Source: Nitrospira lenta
GTDB taxonomy: Bacteria; Nitrospirota; Nitrospiria; Nitrospirales; Nitrospiraceae
NCBI RefSeq assembly: GCF_900403705.1
Contig: NZ_OUNR01000012.1
Span: forward strand, 558,001-622,000
Reading direction: 5' to 3'
DNA length: 64,000 nucleotides
Positions 30,882 to 37,406 of the stretch are shown piece after piece (position 1 is the stretch's first letter; each line of letters starts with the position of its first letter). The notes below the pieces were generated by a model. That model saw only the letters and a program-made list of their open reading frames with translations. It had not been told where the DNA came from and made no database searches. The translations under genes and the position numbers were made by a program.

Positions 30882-31619
30882 ATGCTGCGCGACAGTCAGC
30901 CCGCGCCTGCCTCTCCCATCCGCATCAATAAATTTTTTACCGAGCATGGCATTTGTTCCAGGCGTGAGGCGGACCAGCGCGTCGACGCGGGCCGAGTGAC
31001 GATCAATGGAGTCGTCGCGACGCTGGGCGATCGCGTGCGTCGAACGGATGTCGTCGCTTGCGACGGGGCAGTGATCCCATGGGGTCACGCCTTCATTTAC
31101 ATCAAGTATCACAAGCCGGTCGGAGTCACGACGACGAGCGAGTCGCACGTGCCTCGGAATATTATCGCAGAAATCGGCCATCCCGAACGGATTTTCCCCA
31201 TCGGACGGCTGGATAAAGATTCATCCGGCCTGATCTTGCTCACCAACGACGGAAATATCGTCAACGACATTCTGCGCGTAGAGTTTGGCCATGAACGGGA
31301 ATACGTCGTGGATGTTGAGCGGCCGTTCGATGAGGCGTTCCTTGCGCACATGGCGGAGGGCGTTGTGATTCTCGGCAGTAAGACGCGGCCGTGCCGCATG
31401 GAGCGCGTGCGGCCGAACCGGTTCCGCATCATCTTGACGGAGGGGCGCAATCGCCAGATCAGACGGATGTGTCAGGCGCTGGGCTATCGGGTGACCGGGT
31501 TGCACCGCGTCAGAATCATGCACATTGGAATCGCCGGATTGGGAGTGGGGAGTTGGAAAGCACTCTCGGCCGACGAATGGGCTGAACTGCTTCGGGCGGT
31601 TGGGCGGATGCCAACCTAG
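30882..31619 (+). CDS. rluF: 23S rRNA pseudouridine synthase, RluF type
   Basis: RsuA/RluB/RluF family (245 aa). S4 RNA-binding domain (INKFFTEHGICSRREADQRV) then the catalytic domain with GRLDKDSSGLILLTND (catalytic Asp) and GRNRQIRRMCQALGY. Its length and details are closest to E. coli RluF, which modifies U2604. Thirteen bases after speB, so probably in the same transcript. It ends on the convergent gene at 31616 with a four-base overlap. Confidence 0.9.
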   Translation: MLRDSQPAPASPIRINKFFTEHGICSRREADQRVDAGRVTINGVVATLGDRVRRTDVVACDGAVIPWGHAFIYIKYHKPVGVTTTSESHVPRNIIAEIGHPERIFPIGRLDKDSSGLILLTNDGNIVNDILRVEFGHEREYVVDVERPFDEAFLAHMAEGVVILGSKTRPCRMERVRPNRFRIILTEGRNRQIRRMCQALGYRVTGLHRVRIMHIGIAGLGVGSWKALSADEWAELLRAVGRMPT

Positions 31620-32407
31620 CGGACATCGCTTGAGACGACGGGCGAAGCGGGTGGCCCCCCGATAGGTTCACGATCCGTCGTGTCAGAAGGGAGATCGTCG
31701 GCCGCGTCAATATCGTCGTCGACCGGTTTTCTGCGTGTGCCCAGGAATAGGTTGAGCAACGCGATAAAGAAACTCCCACCCACCAATGTCATGCTGCTGG
31801 CTTTGATCGTTTTCGTTCCCTCATCGCGCATATCTTTTGCCACATCGGCGACGGTATCCAGCAAGTGATCGAGCGACAGGCTTACCTGAATCATTTTAGG
31901 GCCGGCATTGTCGGAGGCATGCTCTTCCGCTTTTCTGCGCAGGGATTCGCGCTCGGCGGGAGAGGTCGCCGTCCACTCCTGAGTCAGGAGCTGAACTGTC
32001 GTGCTCGCGACGGAAAAATATTGATCGAGGCTGCGCCGAACGGACTCAATGTCTTCGGGCTCGCTCCGTCCGCTGCGGGAGACGCGCAGACCTGCCGCCG
32101 CGTACCGGTCGATGGCGTGTTGAATCTTCGCCCGCTGAACGGGAAGCGATTCCGTGATGCGTTCGAAGTCCGTTTGACTGTGGGCTTCCAAGGCTCGAAT
32201 AATCGTATTGCGGTAGCGCATCGTGTCGGCCGAAATGTGCGCGAGGTCGGTCGCCCCGAGTGTGTACTCCGTATACATGATGCGCAGGTCTTGGTCGACT
32301 TGGCTCAGGGTCTGTCCGCTATACCAGCCGATCCCGGCAATGAGGGCGCTGATCAGAAGCTGGGGGCCGGTCGGCTTTGGAATGGAGAGGCGATTGAGCA
32401 GTCCCAC
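31616..32407 (-). CDS. membrane sensor-like protein, no output domain
   Basis: A 263-aa protein with two membrane helices (about 17-30 and 203-223) around a roughly 170-residue helical periplasmic domain that looks like the four-helix-bundle sensor of MCPs. The cytoplasmic tail is only a short acidic, Ser/Pro-rich stretch, so there is no kinase or MA domain. GTG start at 32407 with AAGGA seven bases upstream. Last gene of the HlyD-TolC-ABC operon, 14 bases after the ABC gene. Confidence 0.72.
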   Translation of the reverse strand: MGLLNRLSIPKPTGPQLLISALIAGIGWYSGQTLSQVDQDLRIMYTEYTLGATDLAHISADTMRYRNTIIRALEAHSQTDFERITESLPVQRAKIQHAIDRYAAAGLRVSRSGRSEPEDIESVRRSLDQYFSVASTTVQLLTQEWTATSPAERESLRRKAEEHASDNAGPKMIQVSLSLDHLLDTVADVAKDMRDEGTKTIKASSMTLVGGSFFIALLNLFLGTRRKPVDDDIDAADDLPSDTTDREPIGGPPASPVVSSDVR

Positions 32408-32421
32408 AGCGGTGTCCTTGG

Positions 32422-34089
32422 TTAATCGATGATGATCCGACGGTCGACGTGGGACGTCAGTGTGGGATCGTTGGAGACGAACACCACTGACCAGGGCTCA
32501 TCTTTCGAACAGAGGCGACGGAGAATCGTCTCCCGCATCGTCGGGTGCAGGTTGTGAATGATGCCGTCAAAAATGAGAATCTGCGGCCTGGCGAGGATGG
32601 CGCGCGCGAGCAGGATTCGCGCAATGTGAGTCGGGCCCAACACTCTGCCGGGTGTGCGTACGTGAGACTTAATGCCTTGCGGTAAGGCATCGATCTCGTC
32701 TTCCAGCTCGGTGAAGCGAAGCGCCCAGCGGACATCGCTGTACGGCACATAGGACCGGCCTAACACGATGTTCTCTTCGATGGTGCCTTCGAACAGGGTG
32801 AGTTGAGAGTCGAGCATAAATCCGCGGCAGCGATTGACGGTCGTTCGATCCAGATGCCGGAGATCCACTCCGTTGTAGCGGAGGACGCCATGAGTCGGCG
32901 CGCTCAGCCCAGCGAGGACGCGGGCCAAGGCGGTTTTTGCGGTAGTCGTGCTGGCATAGATGCCGACTTTTTCACCCGGCATGACCTCCAGGTCGAAGTT
33001 CGAGAAGATGGGCGCGGTGCCAGGATGCGCAACCGCCAGATCCTTGCAAGTCAGGCGAATTCCGTGGATGGTGGGATCCGGTAACGGAACGGACAGCGTT
33101 GTGGACTCCTGGTCTTTGGGCAGCGAAAAAAACTGGTCGAGTTCTGTCACGGCGGTCAGGAAGTAATAGACATGGCCCATCCGCTTGACGACGGCCTCGA
33201 AACTATTGAGGAGTCCTGCGACAACCACCTCGGCCGCGACCAGCTGTCCGATCGTCAATTGACCGATCGAGAGGAGCCACCCGGCGGTGGCGATCAGACT
33301 GCTGTGGGCGATTGCCTGCCAGCCGACGGCGCCCAGGTATTGCCGCGCGAGAACGGCAAAACGCGCGCGTCTGGTCGCAACGTAGTTGTCGACCAACATA
33401 TCGGATTTGTGCATGAGCAGGGGCTGACTATCGGTCGCCTTGAAATGCAGCAAGTTGTAGGAAATTTCCTGTATCCAGTGCAGCGTCTCGTATTTGGCAT
33501 GGGAGACTTCAATGGTCGTTCGAAGGCCGCCATGCGACAGGAGGAAAAACACCACATTGAACCCCGTGAGCAGCAATACGTCGTACAGCAGGAAATACGG
33601 GTGGTAGAAGACGAGGATCGACATTCCCACGGCGCCGCCGACGACCACATTGATCATGTCGACAAGCAACACGGAGAGCGCGCGTTGCATCAACACCGTT
33701 TCAAGAAAGTAGTTGGCGTAGCGCGGCTTGAACTTCTGATATTGCATGAGCGGCAGCTGCTGCGTCATGGCGAGGGTGATGCGCGCGTACACCCGGCGCT
33801 CCAGTACTTCGACGGCATAATATTGGAGTGTTTTGAAGACGCCGACAAAGGCCAAGGCCAAGGCCATGACGACGGCGAGAGTCACGATGGTGATGGGCTG
33901 AATCGCGAAGGCGAAGGTGTTGACGAGCTCCTGAACCGTCAACGGCACAATCAGCGAGAACAGACCGATGGCCAGTGAATAGGAGAAGATCAGCCCGAGG
34001 ACTTTCTTCTCAAGGCTGAAGAGGAGCCCCAGGTGTCCCAGCATAGCCTGGAAGAGGTTCGGCTGCGTATCCGAATGGCCTTCGGCCAT
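32422..34089 (-). CDS. ABC exporter-like protein with degenerate ATPase domain
   Basis: A 555-aa membrane-NBD half-exporter: about six helices in residues 30-310, then an ABC domain. Every ATPase motif is altered. Walker A is ASTTTAKTAL (residues 379-388: all Gly lost, Lys385 kept), the Q-loop Gln is replaced, the signature is LGPTH (484-488) in place of LSGGQ, Walker B ends IFDG (catalytic Glu to Gly509), and the H-loop His is Asn540. The frame is intact and the fold looks kept, so this is not a decayed pseudogene. Ribosome site AAGGACC. It follows TolC and HlyD genes; ATP hydrolysis is not expected. Confidence 0.88.
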   Translation of the reverse strand: MAEGHSDTQPNLFQAMLGHLGLLFSLEKKVLGLIFSYSLAIGLFSLIVPLTVQELVNTFAFAIQPITIVTLAVVMALALAFVGVFKTLQYYAVEVLERRVYARITLAMTQQLPLMQYQKFKPRYANYFLETVLMQRALSVLLVDMINVVVGGAVGMSILVFYHPYFLLYDVLLLTGFNVVFFLLSHGGLRTTIEVSHAKYETLHWIQEISYNLLHFKATDSQPLLMHKSDMLVDNYVATRRARFAVLARQYLGAVGWQAIAHSSLIATAGWLLSIGQLTIGQLVAAEVVVAGLLNSFEAVVKRMGHVYYFLTAVTELDQFFSLPKDQESTTLSVPLPDPTIHGIRLTCKDLAVAHPGTAPIFSNFDLEVMPGEKVGIYASTTTAKTALARVLAGLSAPTHGVLRYNGVDLRHLDRTTVNRCRGFMLDSQLTLFEGTIEENIVLGRSYVPYSDVRWALRFTELEDEIDALPQGIKSHVRTPGRVLGPTHIARILLARAILARPQILIFDGIIHNLHPTMRETILRRLCSKDEPWSVVFVSNDPTLTSHVDRRIIID

Positions 34090-34235: not shown

Positions 34236-35717
34236 TTAGTCGCGAGACCGGTAACTGACTGGAACCACACTCGGACTGCTTTTGGCCCAGGCGCCAATGG
34301 CCCATTGATAGAGGGCCTGGGCTTTCTGGTAGTCGGCTTTGGCCCGAATGACCTGCGCTTCGGAGTCCACGGAATTGCGCTCGCGGAGATTGACAAACAG
34401 CACGCTGGTTGCGCCGAGGCCAAACCGGAATCGTTCGCCCTCTTCAAGCGTTCTCGCGAGCTTCAAGGACTGCACGGCTGCTTCCATTCGCTCCTTGGCT
34501 CGCTCGATCGCCGAGAGGGCGTTATCGACATCGACGACCACTTGCTGCTCACGGAACTTTTGGACCATGACAAAGCGGTCTGCTTTGCCCTGAGCCTCAA
34601 GCACTTCGCCGCGGCTTCGGCGCTGGAGAATGGGGATTCTGAGTTCAAGCCCAAAGCGGTATCCGAGGCCGAGTACGAATTTCTCCGGGGCGCGGGCCGG
34701 GGCCGCTTCGGCGTCCAGGCTCGGGAGTAAGTTGTTTTTGGCGAGCTCCAGGTCGATATCGTTCATTTTCGCTTCGATTCCGATTTCTCTAATTTCAGGC
34801 CGCTCGGCTTTCGCTTGGACTTTATGGGCCTTCACGGCGTCAGGTGTCGGAGAAAGCATTTGCGCCGGGAAGTCCGGGACTCGGTCGAGGGCGGGAAGCG
34901 AGGGGACGTTGTTCTCCCACAGGAACATCGAGAGTTTGAACTGTTCCTGCTCCACCTGGCGTTGCGCGGCAATGGAGATTTCTCGACGGCGCTGGACCTC
35001 CTGGTTGGCTTCGACGACGTCTAACGGCGCAACGGCTCCGGCCTTCGCCCGCCCGTCCACCTGCTTAAACCGATCCTCTGCCACTTTGAGGGCTTTGCGC
35101 TGAACTTCGACATAGCGGACGGCGGCGACCCAATCCCAGAACTGTGTGGCTGCGGCGAGGAACAAGTCCTGCCGGGTCTGTGCAATACGGATATCCGCTC
35201 GGGGATCGGCCAGCTCCGACCGCTGCAGTTCGGCATTCTCAGGATTGATCATCAAGCCTTTCAGGAGGGGAAAGAACCCTCCTAACAGGACCTGCTGGTT
35301 TCCGTTTCCAAAAGAAAGGTCAGGAATCTTGGCATCGCCGATGGCTTGGCGAACCCCTGCGCTGTACCGAAATCCCATCGGATTCCGGGCTTCGATGAGG
35401 GTGTCGTTGAAGCCCACCGATTGGGTGCCGAACTTATCCTTTGAGACGAACCGTTCGATTTCGGTGTCATTGACGAAGATGGGCTCAAAGGCTCCAAGGG
35501 CTTTGAGCATTCGGCCGCGTGCCATCACTTTCTCAGTCCCGGCTCCTTTGAGCAACGGGTGTGAACGATCGATCCAGGCGTGGATTTCATCCAGGCTCAA
35601 GGGAATTGCGGGGAGCCCTTTTGCCGCGTCTCCCTCGGCTGCGGCGGCGCTGAACGGAACCGCTGCCGCAGACAGAACGAGTGCCCCAAGCACGAGGCCG
35701 AACCGTAAGAATATCAT
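34236..35717 (-). CDS. TolC-family outer membrane efflux protein
   Basis: A 493-aa OMF channel protein. The ATG at 35717 has AAAGGAG five bases upstream and opens a clear signal peptide (IFLRFGLVLGALVLSAAAVP); the longer frame to 35957 is not supported. Long helical coiled segments (VAPLDVVEANQEVQRRREIS, ALSAIERAKERMEAAVQSLKLAR) in two repeats are typical of TolC. It should provide the outer-membrane exit for the HlyD-ABC pair encoded on either side. Confidence 0.88.
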   Translation of the reverse strand: MIFLRFGLVLGALVLSAAAVPFSAAAAEGDAAKGLPAIPLSLDEIHAWIDRSHPLLKGAGTEKVMARGRMLKALGAFEPIFVNDTEIERFVSKDKFGTQSVGFNDTLIEARNPMGFRYSAGVRQAIGDAKIPDLSFGNGNQQVLLGGFFPLLKGLMINPENAELQRSELADPRADIRIAQTRQDLFLAAATQFWDWVAAVRYVEVQRKALKVAEDRFKQVDGRAKAGAVAPLDVVEANQEVQRRREISIAAQRQVEQEQFKLSMFLWENNVPSLPALDRVPDFPAQMLSPTPDAVKAHKVQAKAERPEIREIGIEAKMNDIDLELAKNNLLPSLDAEAAPARAPEKFVLGLGYRFGLELRIPILQRRSRGEVLEAQGKADRFVMVQKFREQQVVVDVDNALSAIERAKERMEAAVQSLKLARTLEEGERFRFGLGATSVLFVNLRERNSVDSEAQVIRAKADYQKAQALYQWAIGAWAKSSPSVVPVSYRSRD

Positions 35718-35838: not shown

Positions 35839-37275
35839 TTACTTCGCACCTCGTCCCGCTTTCGGTAAGAGCGTATCGATGAGGCTTGGCGGACGCTCTT
35901 GGTAATCAGGCGGGAAGAGGTTAAAGCGCCGCCAGAGTTCATACCAGAGCGGAACACGATTGAGGATGACCCAGCCCATGACTTTGGTGCCTTGCCGCAC
36001 GTGATTCTGCTCGGGCCACATCCGATCTTCGGGGTCCGGCACCACCCAGAAACGGAAATTCCCCTTGCCGTCGTCTACTTGGTCGATCACTTTGATCACA
36101 CCGGCATAGGTGCCGTACATGGCGTCGGGCCAGGCGGGAAGCGGAATAGCCGGAATGCCGTAAAAGAGAATTTTGACTTTCCGCCCGACGTTGAGCAACG
36201 GAGCATCGATGCCGTCCGCGGTCATTTCAATGGCTTTGTCGATGCTGCTCGGCGAGATACGAACGATCTTGTCGCCCTGGCGAACCGTTTCACCGGCGCC
36301 CGCTTGTACCATCTTGACGACCGTCCCATCGATGGGAGCCAGAACTTTGCTGGCGTTTCGCCGTTGAGTCGCATTCGACATGCGGAGCGAGACGTCAGCC
36401 AATTGATCCGCCGCTTTGGCAGCCTCGCCGACGGAGGCATCCCACGCCGCTTCAGCGTCCAGTAATCGTTGCAATACCTCGGCGCTGACCTGCTCTCGTC
36501 CAAAGCCGATGGCTTTCATCGATTGCTCGGCTGCTCTCAGATTGGCCTGCGCCCCTTCGAAATCGGCCTTGCTGACGATCGAGGATTGGATGGTCAACTC
36601 CAATTCCCGTTGAGACACCAGGCCCTGTTCGGCCAGTTGTTTGTGACGGTCAACATTTAAGGTTGCGGTCGTGACGGCAATCTTGGCGGATTCCACTTTC
36701 TGGTAGGCCTCGCGCACTTTATTCTCGGCTTCGACGACGCGGGCCTGAGCCGAGGGAATGGCGGCTTTGACCAGGTTCTGCATTTCCTTGATGCGTTTGT
36801 CGAGTTGGTCCGCTCGCGCCATGGCGGCTTGGCGGGTTTGTTCGAGCGCTTTTTTGCGTTGGTCGAGGAAGGATAAGAGATCCGGGGCCATGAAGTTCGG
36901 ATCGTAATCCTCCAACTCCACAATCAGGTCCCCTTGTTTGACGCGGACGCCTTCGAAGACGTGCCATTTTTGGATCCGTCCCGTGATCTGGGCTTCAATA
37001 TCTTGCGGACGTTCATAGGGCGAATAGGCGGAGAGTTGACCCGTGACGGTGATCGTCTGTGTCCAAGGCACAAAGGCAATGATGAGGAGGAACAGGACAA
37101 CGAGCGTAATGGCCAGCCGGGAAGAAAACTTCAAGCGTTCCGGGATCTGTACCGCTTCCCATGACTGGAGCTTGCTGGATGTGGCCAGATCATCGATCGC
37201 AATCTCGCTCAGGCCGCTGTCCCTCGTGATGAGCGAGCGGACTTTGTGTTTCAGACCTGACACAAGGCGAGCCAC
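35839..37275 (-). CDS. HlyD-family membrane fusion protein
   Basis: A periplasmic adaptor (478 aa). A GTG start at 37275 is preferred, with GAGGAG nine bases upstream; a longer frame opens at 37374. A cytoplasmic part (about 55 aa), one membrane helix (LAITLVVLFLLIIAFVPW), a split biotinyl-lipoyl domain (GRIQKWHVFEGVRVKQGDLI ... LAPIDGTVVKMVQAGAGE), a long coiled coil between them and a beta-barrel end follow. First gene of the operon; partner for TolC (next gene) and the degenerate ABC protein. Confidence 0.88.
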   Translation of the reverse strand: MARLVSGLKHKVRSLITRDSGLSEIAIDDLATSSKLQSWEAVQIPERLKFSSRLAITLVVLFLLIIAFVPWTQTITVTGQLSAYSPYERPQDIEAQITGRIQKWHVFEGVRVKQGDLIVELEDYDPNFMAPDLLSFLDQRKKALEQTRQAAMARADQLDKRIKEMQNLVKAAIPSAQARVVEAENKVREAYQKVESAKIAVTTATLNVDRHKQLAEQGLVSQRELELTIQSSIVSKADFEGAQANLRAAEQSMKAIGFGREQVSAEVLQRLLDAEAAWDASVGEAAKAADQLADVSLRMSNATQRRNASKVLAPIDGTVVKMVQAGAGETVRQGDKIVRISPSSIDKAIEMTADGIDAPLLNVGRKVKILFYGIPAIPLPAWPDAMYGTYAGVIKVIDQVDDGKGNFRFWVVPDPEDRMWPEQNHVRQGTKVMGWVILNRVPLWYELWRRFNLFPPDYQERPPSLIDTLLPKAGRGAK

Positions 37276-37406
37276 GACGGTGATCTCCTCAGGCGACGGC
37301 AGTGTAGAAATCGGACACCGCCCATCATAAGAGAAACATTGGGCGGAGGTCAATTTGAAGCGCAGAACCGGCATACGTGGAGCTGCGTATGGTGAGCGGG
37401 TTCACC

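Follow-up and report, generated by a model that had tools for sequence, protein, structure and literature searches.

The window, by which is meant the whole 64,000-nucleotide stretch of Nitrospira lenta DNA that was analyzed, carries an operon of four genes in the order HlyD, TolC, ABC and 4HB (Table 1). The adaptor and the outer membrane factor of this cluster were recognized with Pfam (HlyD_3, 3.3e-9; OEP, 1.1e-31) and are conserved neighbors of the ABC gene. The TolC reading frame, as called mechanically, reaches 35957, and the ATG at 35717 was taken as its start. The gene for the four-helix-bundle (4HB) membrane protein lies 14 bases after the ABC gene and is conserved only where the genes are arranged as in the window.

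Table 1. Features of the HlyD-TolC-ABC-4HB operon, in window positions; residue numbers are those of the ABC protein.
Feature	Position	Strand	Residues	Remarks
HlyD-family periplasmic adaptor	35839..37374	-		Cassette-specific C-terminus WYELWRRFNLFPPDY; translation may begin at GTG 37275
TolC-family outer membrane factor with signal peptide	34236..35717	-		AAAGGAG before ATG 35717
ABC exporter, predicted ATPase-dead (type IV TMD and degenerate NBD)	32422..34089	-	555 aa	ATG at 34089, stop at 32422
Transmembrane domain (TMD)	33085..34089	-	1-335	Retained by every member, including those without an NBD
Glu287 in TM6	33229..33231	-	287	Glu in 68/75 cassette proteins and Gln in the other 7; 6 canonical exporters have a non-acidic residue here
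Degenerate nucleotide-binding domain (NBD)	32425..33069	-	341-555	
Walker A remnant	32926..32958	-	378-388	YASTTTAKTAL
Q-loop region	32791..32820	-	424-433	FMLDSQLTLF
Signature remnant	32617..32643	-	483-491	VLGPTHIAR
Walker B / D-loop remnant	32545..32580	-	504-515	ILIFDGIIHNLH
H-loop remnant	32461..32487	-	535-543	VVFVSNDPT
Four-helix-bundle (4HB_MCP-like) membrane protein without signaling domain	31616..32407	-	263 aa	

ABC_tran is still detected by Pfam in the NBD of the ABC protein (34.1 bits against a cut-off of 25). The AlphaFold model is that of a full exporter (pLDDT 76.7), and its top Foldseek match in the PDB is HlyB in the HlyB/HlyD complex (E 2e-20, TMq 0.66). Comparison with known structures by VIA-align gave Z values up to 26.2 (rmsd 3.4 over 399), and the NBD could be superposed on that of TAP1 at 2.1 Å over 222 residues (Z 25.1). 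The predicted model thus has the type IV ABC exporter fold, a six-TM TMD joined to an NBD fold.

The catalytic motifs were read by alignment with PrtD and canonical exporters. The canonical P-loop GPSGSGKS is ASTTTAKT in the window protein, with no glycine left, and the signature LSGGQ has become LGPTH. Walker B reads ILIFDG, with Gly509 in place of the catalytic glutamate (DE to DG); the D-loop is HNLH, and the H-loop is SNDP, with Asn for His. A serine is aligned with the glutamine of the Q-loop, where a one-residue gap makes this the least certain of the five motif losses. The original prediction had described these replacements (Walker A glycines, signature, catalytic Glu, Q-loop and H-loop) in a full-length frame with a retained fold; the alignment bears out the first point, and the Pfam match and the HlyB match to the AlphaFold model bear out the second. 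It did not mention that Lys385 and Thr386 of Walker A and Asp508 of Walker B are retained.

At E ≤ 1e-30 the window protein (P0001) is matched in 147 of the 175 genomes of its own family, and there are further matches in a second family within the order; MAGs make up most of the genomes. Among the 89 distinct full-length Nitrospirales members, the position of the catalytic glutamate is Gly in every one. The H-loop His and the first Walker A glycine are present in none, any one member has at most one of the three glycines, and an NBD fit for ATP hydrolysis, with Walker A, signature, Walker B Glu and H-loop His intact, was found in 0/89. Two residues beside the dead motifs, His512 at Walker B and Asp541 at the H-loop, are invariant (56/56 non-redundant members). 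Among close relatives the NBD has a dN/dS of 0.03-0.13 and the TMD one of 0.03-0.09, ratios that indicate strong purifying selection on both. Deeper members with a mixed profile were sought in the rest of Nitrospirota; the matches in 52 genomes were all canonical-looking ABC proteins and were made through the NBD region.

The simultaneous loss of many motifs looks like decay. However, the frames are open family-wide, the same replacements are fixed in 89/89 members and dN/dS is far below 1, by which a pseudogene, random decay or an assembly error is ruled out; the probability left to such an origin is negligible. The claim that this is a conserved pseudo-ATPase was open to the objection that orthologues with intact motifs might exist. 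Since Gly is fixed at the catalytic position and the H-loop His is absent throughout, that objection does not hold within Nitrospirales, where none of the 89 members has intact motifs and the selection on the NBD agrees with the claim.

The three-gene cassette was also found by tblastn of plasmid records in Bacteroidota (Persicobacter, Aureibacter and Riemerella) and in Sphingomonadales. The sample beyond Nitrospirota consists of plasmid records only, four from Bacteroidota and 12 from sphingomonads, and intact relatives elsewhere are possible; in a scan of genome contigs the best 80 loci were all from Nitrospirota. All 16 of these ABC proteins are dead, through different substitutions. The sphingomonad proteins lack the Walker A Lys and the acidic pair at Walker B; those of Persicobacter and Riemerella retain much of Walker A, but neither the signature nor the acidic pair of Walker B is left in them. 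Novosphingobium aromaticivorans DSM 12444 is one carrier of the cassette (SARO_RS19820-19810). Near-Walker A sequences in some Bacteroidota members are GYNNSGKN and GDTASGKS.

Several lines of evidence join the cassettes of the three phyla. An invariant C-terminal pattern, YE[LIM]WRxxNxFPx, is common to the HlyD of the window and those of the other phyla, and the 20 plasmid records found with the window HlyD at E < 1e-12 are all among the 30 best ABC records. Scored against the Nitrospirales profile, cassette ABC proteins reach at least 207 bits and canonical ABC proteins at most 119. In an ML tree, to be read with the caveats of long branches and midpoint rooting, a branch with 100/100 support parts the cassette proteins from 19 canonical ABC exporters. 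Identities in TMD and NBD are 0.19 and 0.41 for canonical exporters, compared with 0.71 and 0.56 in sphingomonads, 0.50 and 0.31 in Bacteroidota, 0.25 and 0.17 between these two groups, and 0.57 and 0.56 within Nitrospirota. By this measure the order of conservation in the cassette is the reverse of that in canonical exporters, and across phyla the constraint falls on the TMD. Four of its residues, Q53, H163, Y236 and Q250, are invariant (75/75 cassette proteins).

The Walker A Lys is retained in 75/89 Nitrospirales members and the Walker B Asp in 79/89. Since the Lys and an acidic Walker B residue (Asp/Glu) are mostly retained, and Walker A survives for the most part in two Bacteroidota genera, nucleotide binding is possible; the NBD, which is conserved within Nitrospirota, might bind nucleotide without hydrolysis and act as an ATP-sensing switch or clamp. 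Yet the glycine losses extend to all 89 Nitrospirales members, the sphingomonads are without the Lys as well, and the NBD is dispensable in one genus. A role of this kind would be quite surprising.

The genus in question belongs to the sister family, and in three of its genomes (L128-L130) the ABC gene ends after the TMD (337-346 aa). HlyD and TolC are intact upstream, the same gene follows downstream in all three, and tblastn found no trace of an NBD. The predicted model of an NBD-less member (pLDDT 69) matches ABC TMDs with Z up to 18.5 (rmsd 4.1 over 296). Because these members come from one genus and are nested inside the Nitrospirota clade of the ML tree, they are counted as one loss event. 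As the sequences show, the catalytic motifs are all replaced throughout the members read, and the NBD has been dispensable at least once; the dead relatives in three phyla and this deletion add to the case for a conserved pseudo-ATPase.

The original prediction also allowed that a second ABC protein from elsewhere is needed. An active ABC protein, or some other ATPase, encoded elsewhere could energize the dead protein in trans, in mixed dimers or a ring with active units; other intact ABC exporters are encoded in the genome of the window, and TM287/288 and TmrAB, known heterodimers with one degenerate site, are among the Foldseek matches in the PDB. These exporters and TAP resemble the cassette protein in having a degenerate NBD within a full-length exporter. 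Heterodimers of this type retain one working site, whereas the cassette copies are all dead and there is no adjacent consensus site. Their partners are normally adjacent, yet in the several genomes in which two ABC copies stand in tandem both are dead, which rules out the neighboring copy as the source of a partner NBD. Nor does an ATPase recur by the cassette beyond lineage-specific synteny, and an NBD-less version exists. The proposal is weakened by these findings, and we consider energization in trans improbable.

Three arrangements of the cassette were seen: HlyD-TolC-ABC(-ABC)-4HB, as in the window; TolC-ABC with a convergent HlyD; and TolC-TolC-TolC-ABC-HlyD (type C; for example L069, L075-L082 and L087). 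The triple TolC paralogues could possibly form a heterotrimeric outer membrane channel. Several flanking genes (L051-L090) recur at both window-type and triple-TolC cassettes in Nitrospira, and the same chromosomal position may therefore be occupied by either. The recurrent neighbors are a syntenic block, housekeeping-looking to judge by the genes of the window (agmatinase-, RluB- and PurE/PurK-like), together with NhaR and DabAB. No conserved accessory ATPase was recognized among them, and no recurrent candidate substrate gene was noticed in the comparison of neighboring genes.

In the sister family and in two Nitrospira arrangements, a gene beside the cassette encodes a LysR regulator of the NhaR type and is often divergent (L075:2330-3253, L134:4741-5667, L128:210-1139 and similar loci); the three regulators tested all scored above the curated cut-off. 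In E. coli, NhaR is a regulator of the response to high salt and high pH (PMC6307784). Genes for the inorganic-carbon transporter DabA/DabB adjoin the cassette in three arrangements and two phyla, downstream at L128-L130 and upstream at L137:14978-18232 (DabA alone) and L245:1-3911.

These neighbors are a weak hint of ion-coupled secondary export, in which the TMD would alternate by means of H+ or Na+ and deliver its substrate through HlyD and TolC. The precedent is SbmA/BacA (SLiPT), a proton-driven ABC-type TMD that works without ATP and is thought to have descended from an ABC transporter by loss of the NBD (PMC13316013). The cassette likewise has an ABC-type TMD with no working NBD, or with none at all, and one conserved acidic residue in TM6, E287. 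SLiPTs, however, import their substrates, have a glutamate ladder and a TM0, and lack coupling helices, whereas the cassette usually retains a dead NBD (only L128-L130 being without one), has no ladder, and has HlyD and TolC as fixed partners. E287 stands alone as a conserved, cassette-specific acidic residue inside the membrane, and it is Gln in 7/59 Nitrospirota members; neighboring genes are weak evidence of mechanism, and NhaR is absent from the window's own genome. SbmA was not among the VIA-align matches listed for either the window model or the NBD-less model, which is uninformative either way. Coupling to the proton motive force is possible, though without the glutamate ladder of SbmA, and we hold ion-coupled export to be rather unlikely. 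The same doubt attaches to the broader proposal that the cassettes are a cross-phylum class of ABC exporters turned into ion-gradient-driven pumps for the HlyD-TolC duct, with the dead NBDs as intermediates on the way to full loss.

The nearest known systems are those of type I secretion, together with ABC exporters of the PCAT and PrtD types. HlyB/HlyD/TolC has the same trio of ABC exporter, HlyD adaptor and TolC; the predicted fold of the window ABC protein is closest to that of HlyB in its complex with HlyD, and the NCBIfam matches of the window proteins belong to type I secretion and bacteriocin exporters. The cassette differs in having no working NBD motif (0/89 and 0/16 intact), and the window proteins fall far short of the cut-offs of the T1SS models, scoring 126 bits against 693 for the LssB-type model, 69 against 209 for HlyD and 42 against 225 for TolC. 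Kamneva et al. (2015) described loci for HlyD, OEP and peptidase M50 with a secondary SecA_DEAD protein and no ABC homologue (PMC4452313). These HlyD loci are likewise type-I-like and operate without an ABC engine, but they have a SecA-like ATPase of their own in place of an ABC protein. Among the neighbors in the window gene list no SecA-like gene was seen, and identity with that system was rejected given the presence of the ABC gene. No published description of a dead-ABC/HlyD/TolC family was found in the open literature, to which the search was confined.

The HlyA system combines three HlyB dimers with six HlyD (PMC11026475), and an ABC TMD is therefore able to serve as a structural platform. 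By analogy, dimers of the cassette TMD would form a docking ring and a gate for HlyD and the TolC duct, and the window protein would be the inner-membrane member of a distinct HlyD-TolC complex. In Nitrospira the NBD may have turned into a structural or interaction module. Since the catalytic motifs are replaced and the NBD is lost in one genus, the window protein would act in transport or gating without hydrolyzing ATP. We therefore lean, with a little more confidence than doubt, towards a cross-phylum HlyD-TolC envelope complex built around an ABC exporter that does not hydrolyze ATP and acts as a docking module or gate. The scaffold, gate or ATP-independent conduit named in the original prediction fits this anatomy; as a function it is still argued from analogy. 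If the complex is powered at all, the energy more likely comes from an ion gradient, or from a substrate moving down its own gradient, than from an ATPase acting in trans.

Hydrolysis of ATP is the defining activity of ABC exporters. An entire family beside HlyD and TolC has lost it, the dead NBD being mostly maintained by selection and discarded in one genus, and a conserved dead engine in this position suggests that the envelope-spanning machine works without ATP. Such a natural system bears on which parts of a tripartite machine need ATP, on the purpose of a retained dead NBD, and on whether ion gradients can re-power ABC TMDs, which has so far been argued mainly from SbmA. Some genes beside HlyD and TolC that are annotated as "ABC transporter ATP-binding protein" probably do not encode ATPases.

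The Persicobacter proteins (L226:5500-7683 and L241:3488-5683) have about 150 extra N-terminal residues with no Pfam match; in many T1SS exporters a C39-like domain occupies the same place. PADLOC gave no match with the window proteins; the C-terminus of the Persicobacter ABC protein weakly matched a mads_3 model. The genome of the window also encodes a distant paralogue (45% identity; G000:C12:520069-521703), likewise dead and without an adjoining HlyD or TolC. This copy (L050:9067-10839) and a second orphan (L147:8664-10394) adjoin two genes that, on inspection of the ORFs by eye, resemble those of a glycosyltransferase and an ArnT-type transferase, and these neighbors suggest a lipid or envelope role for the orphan dead copies.
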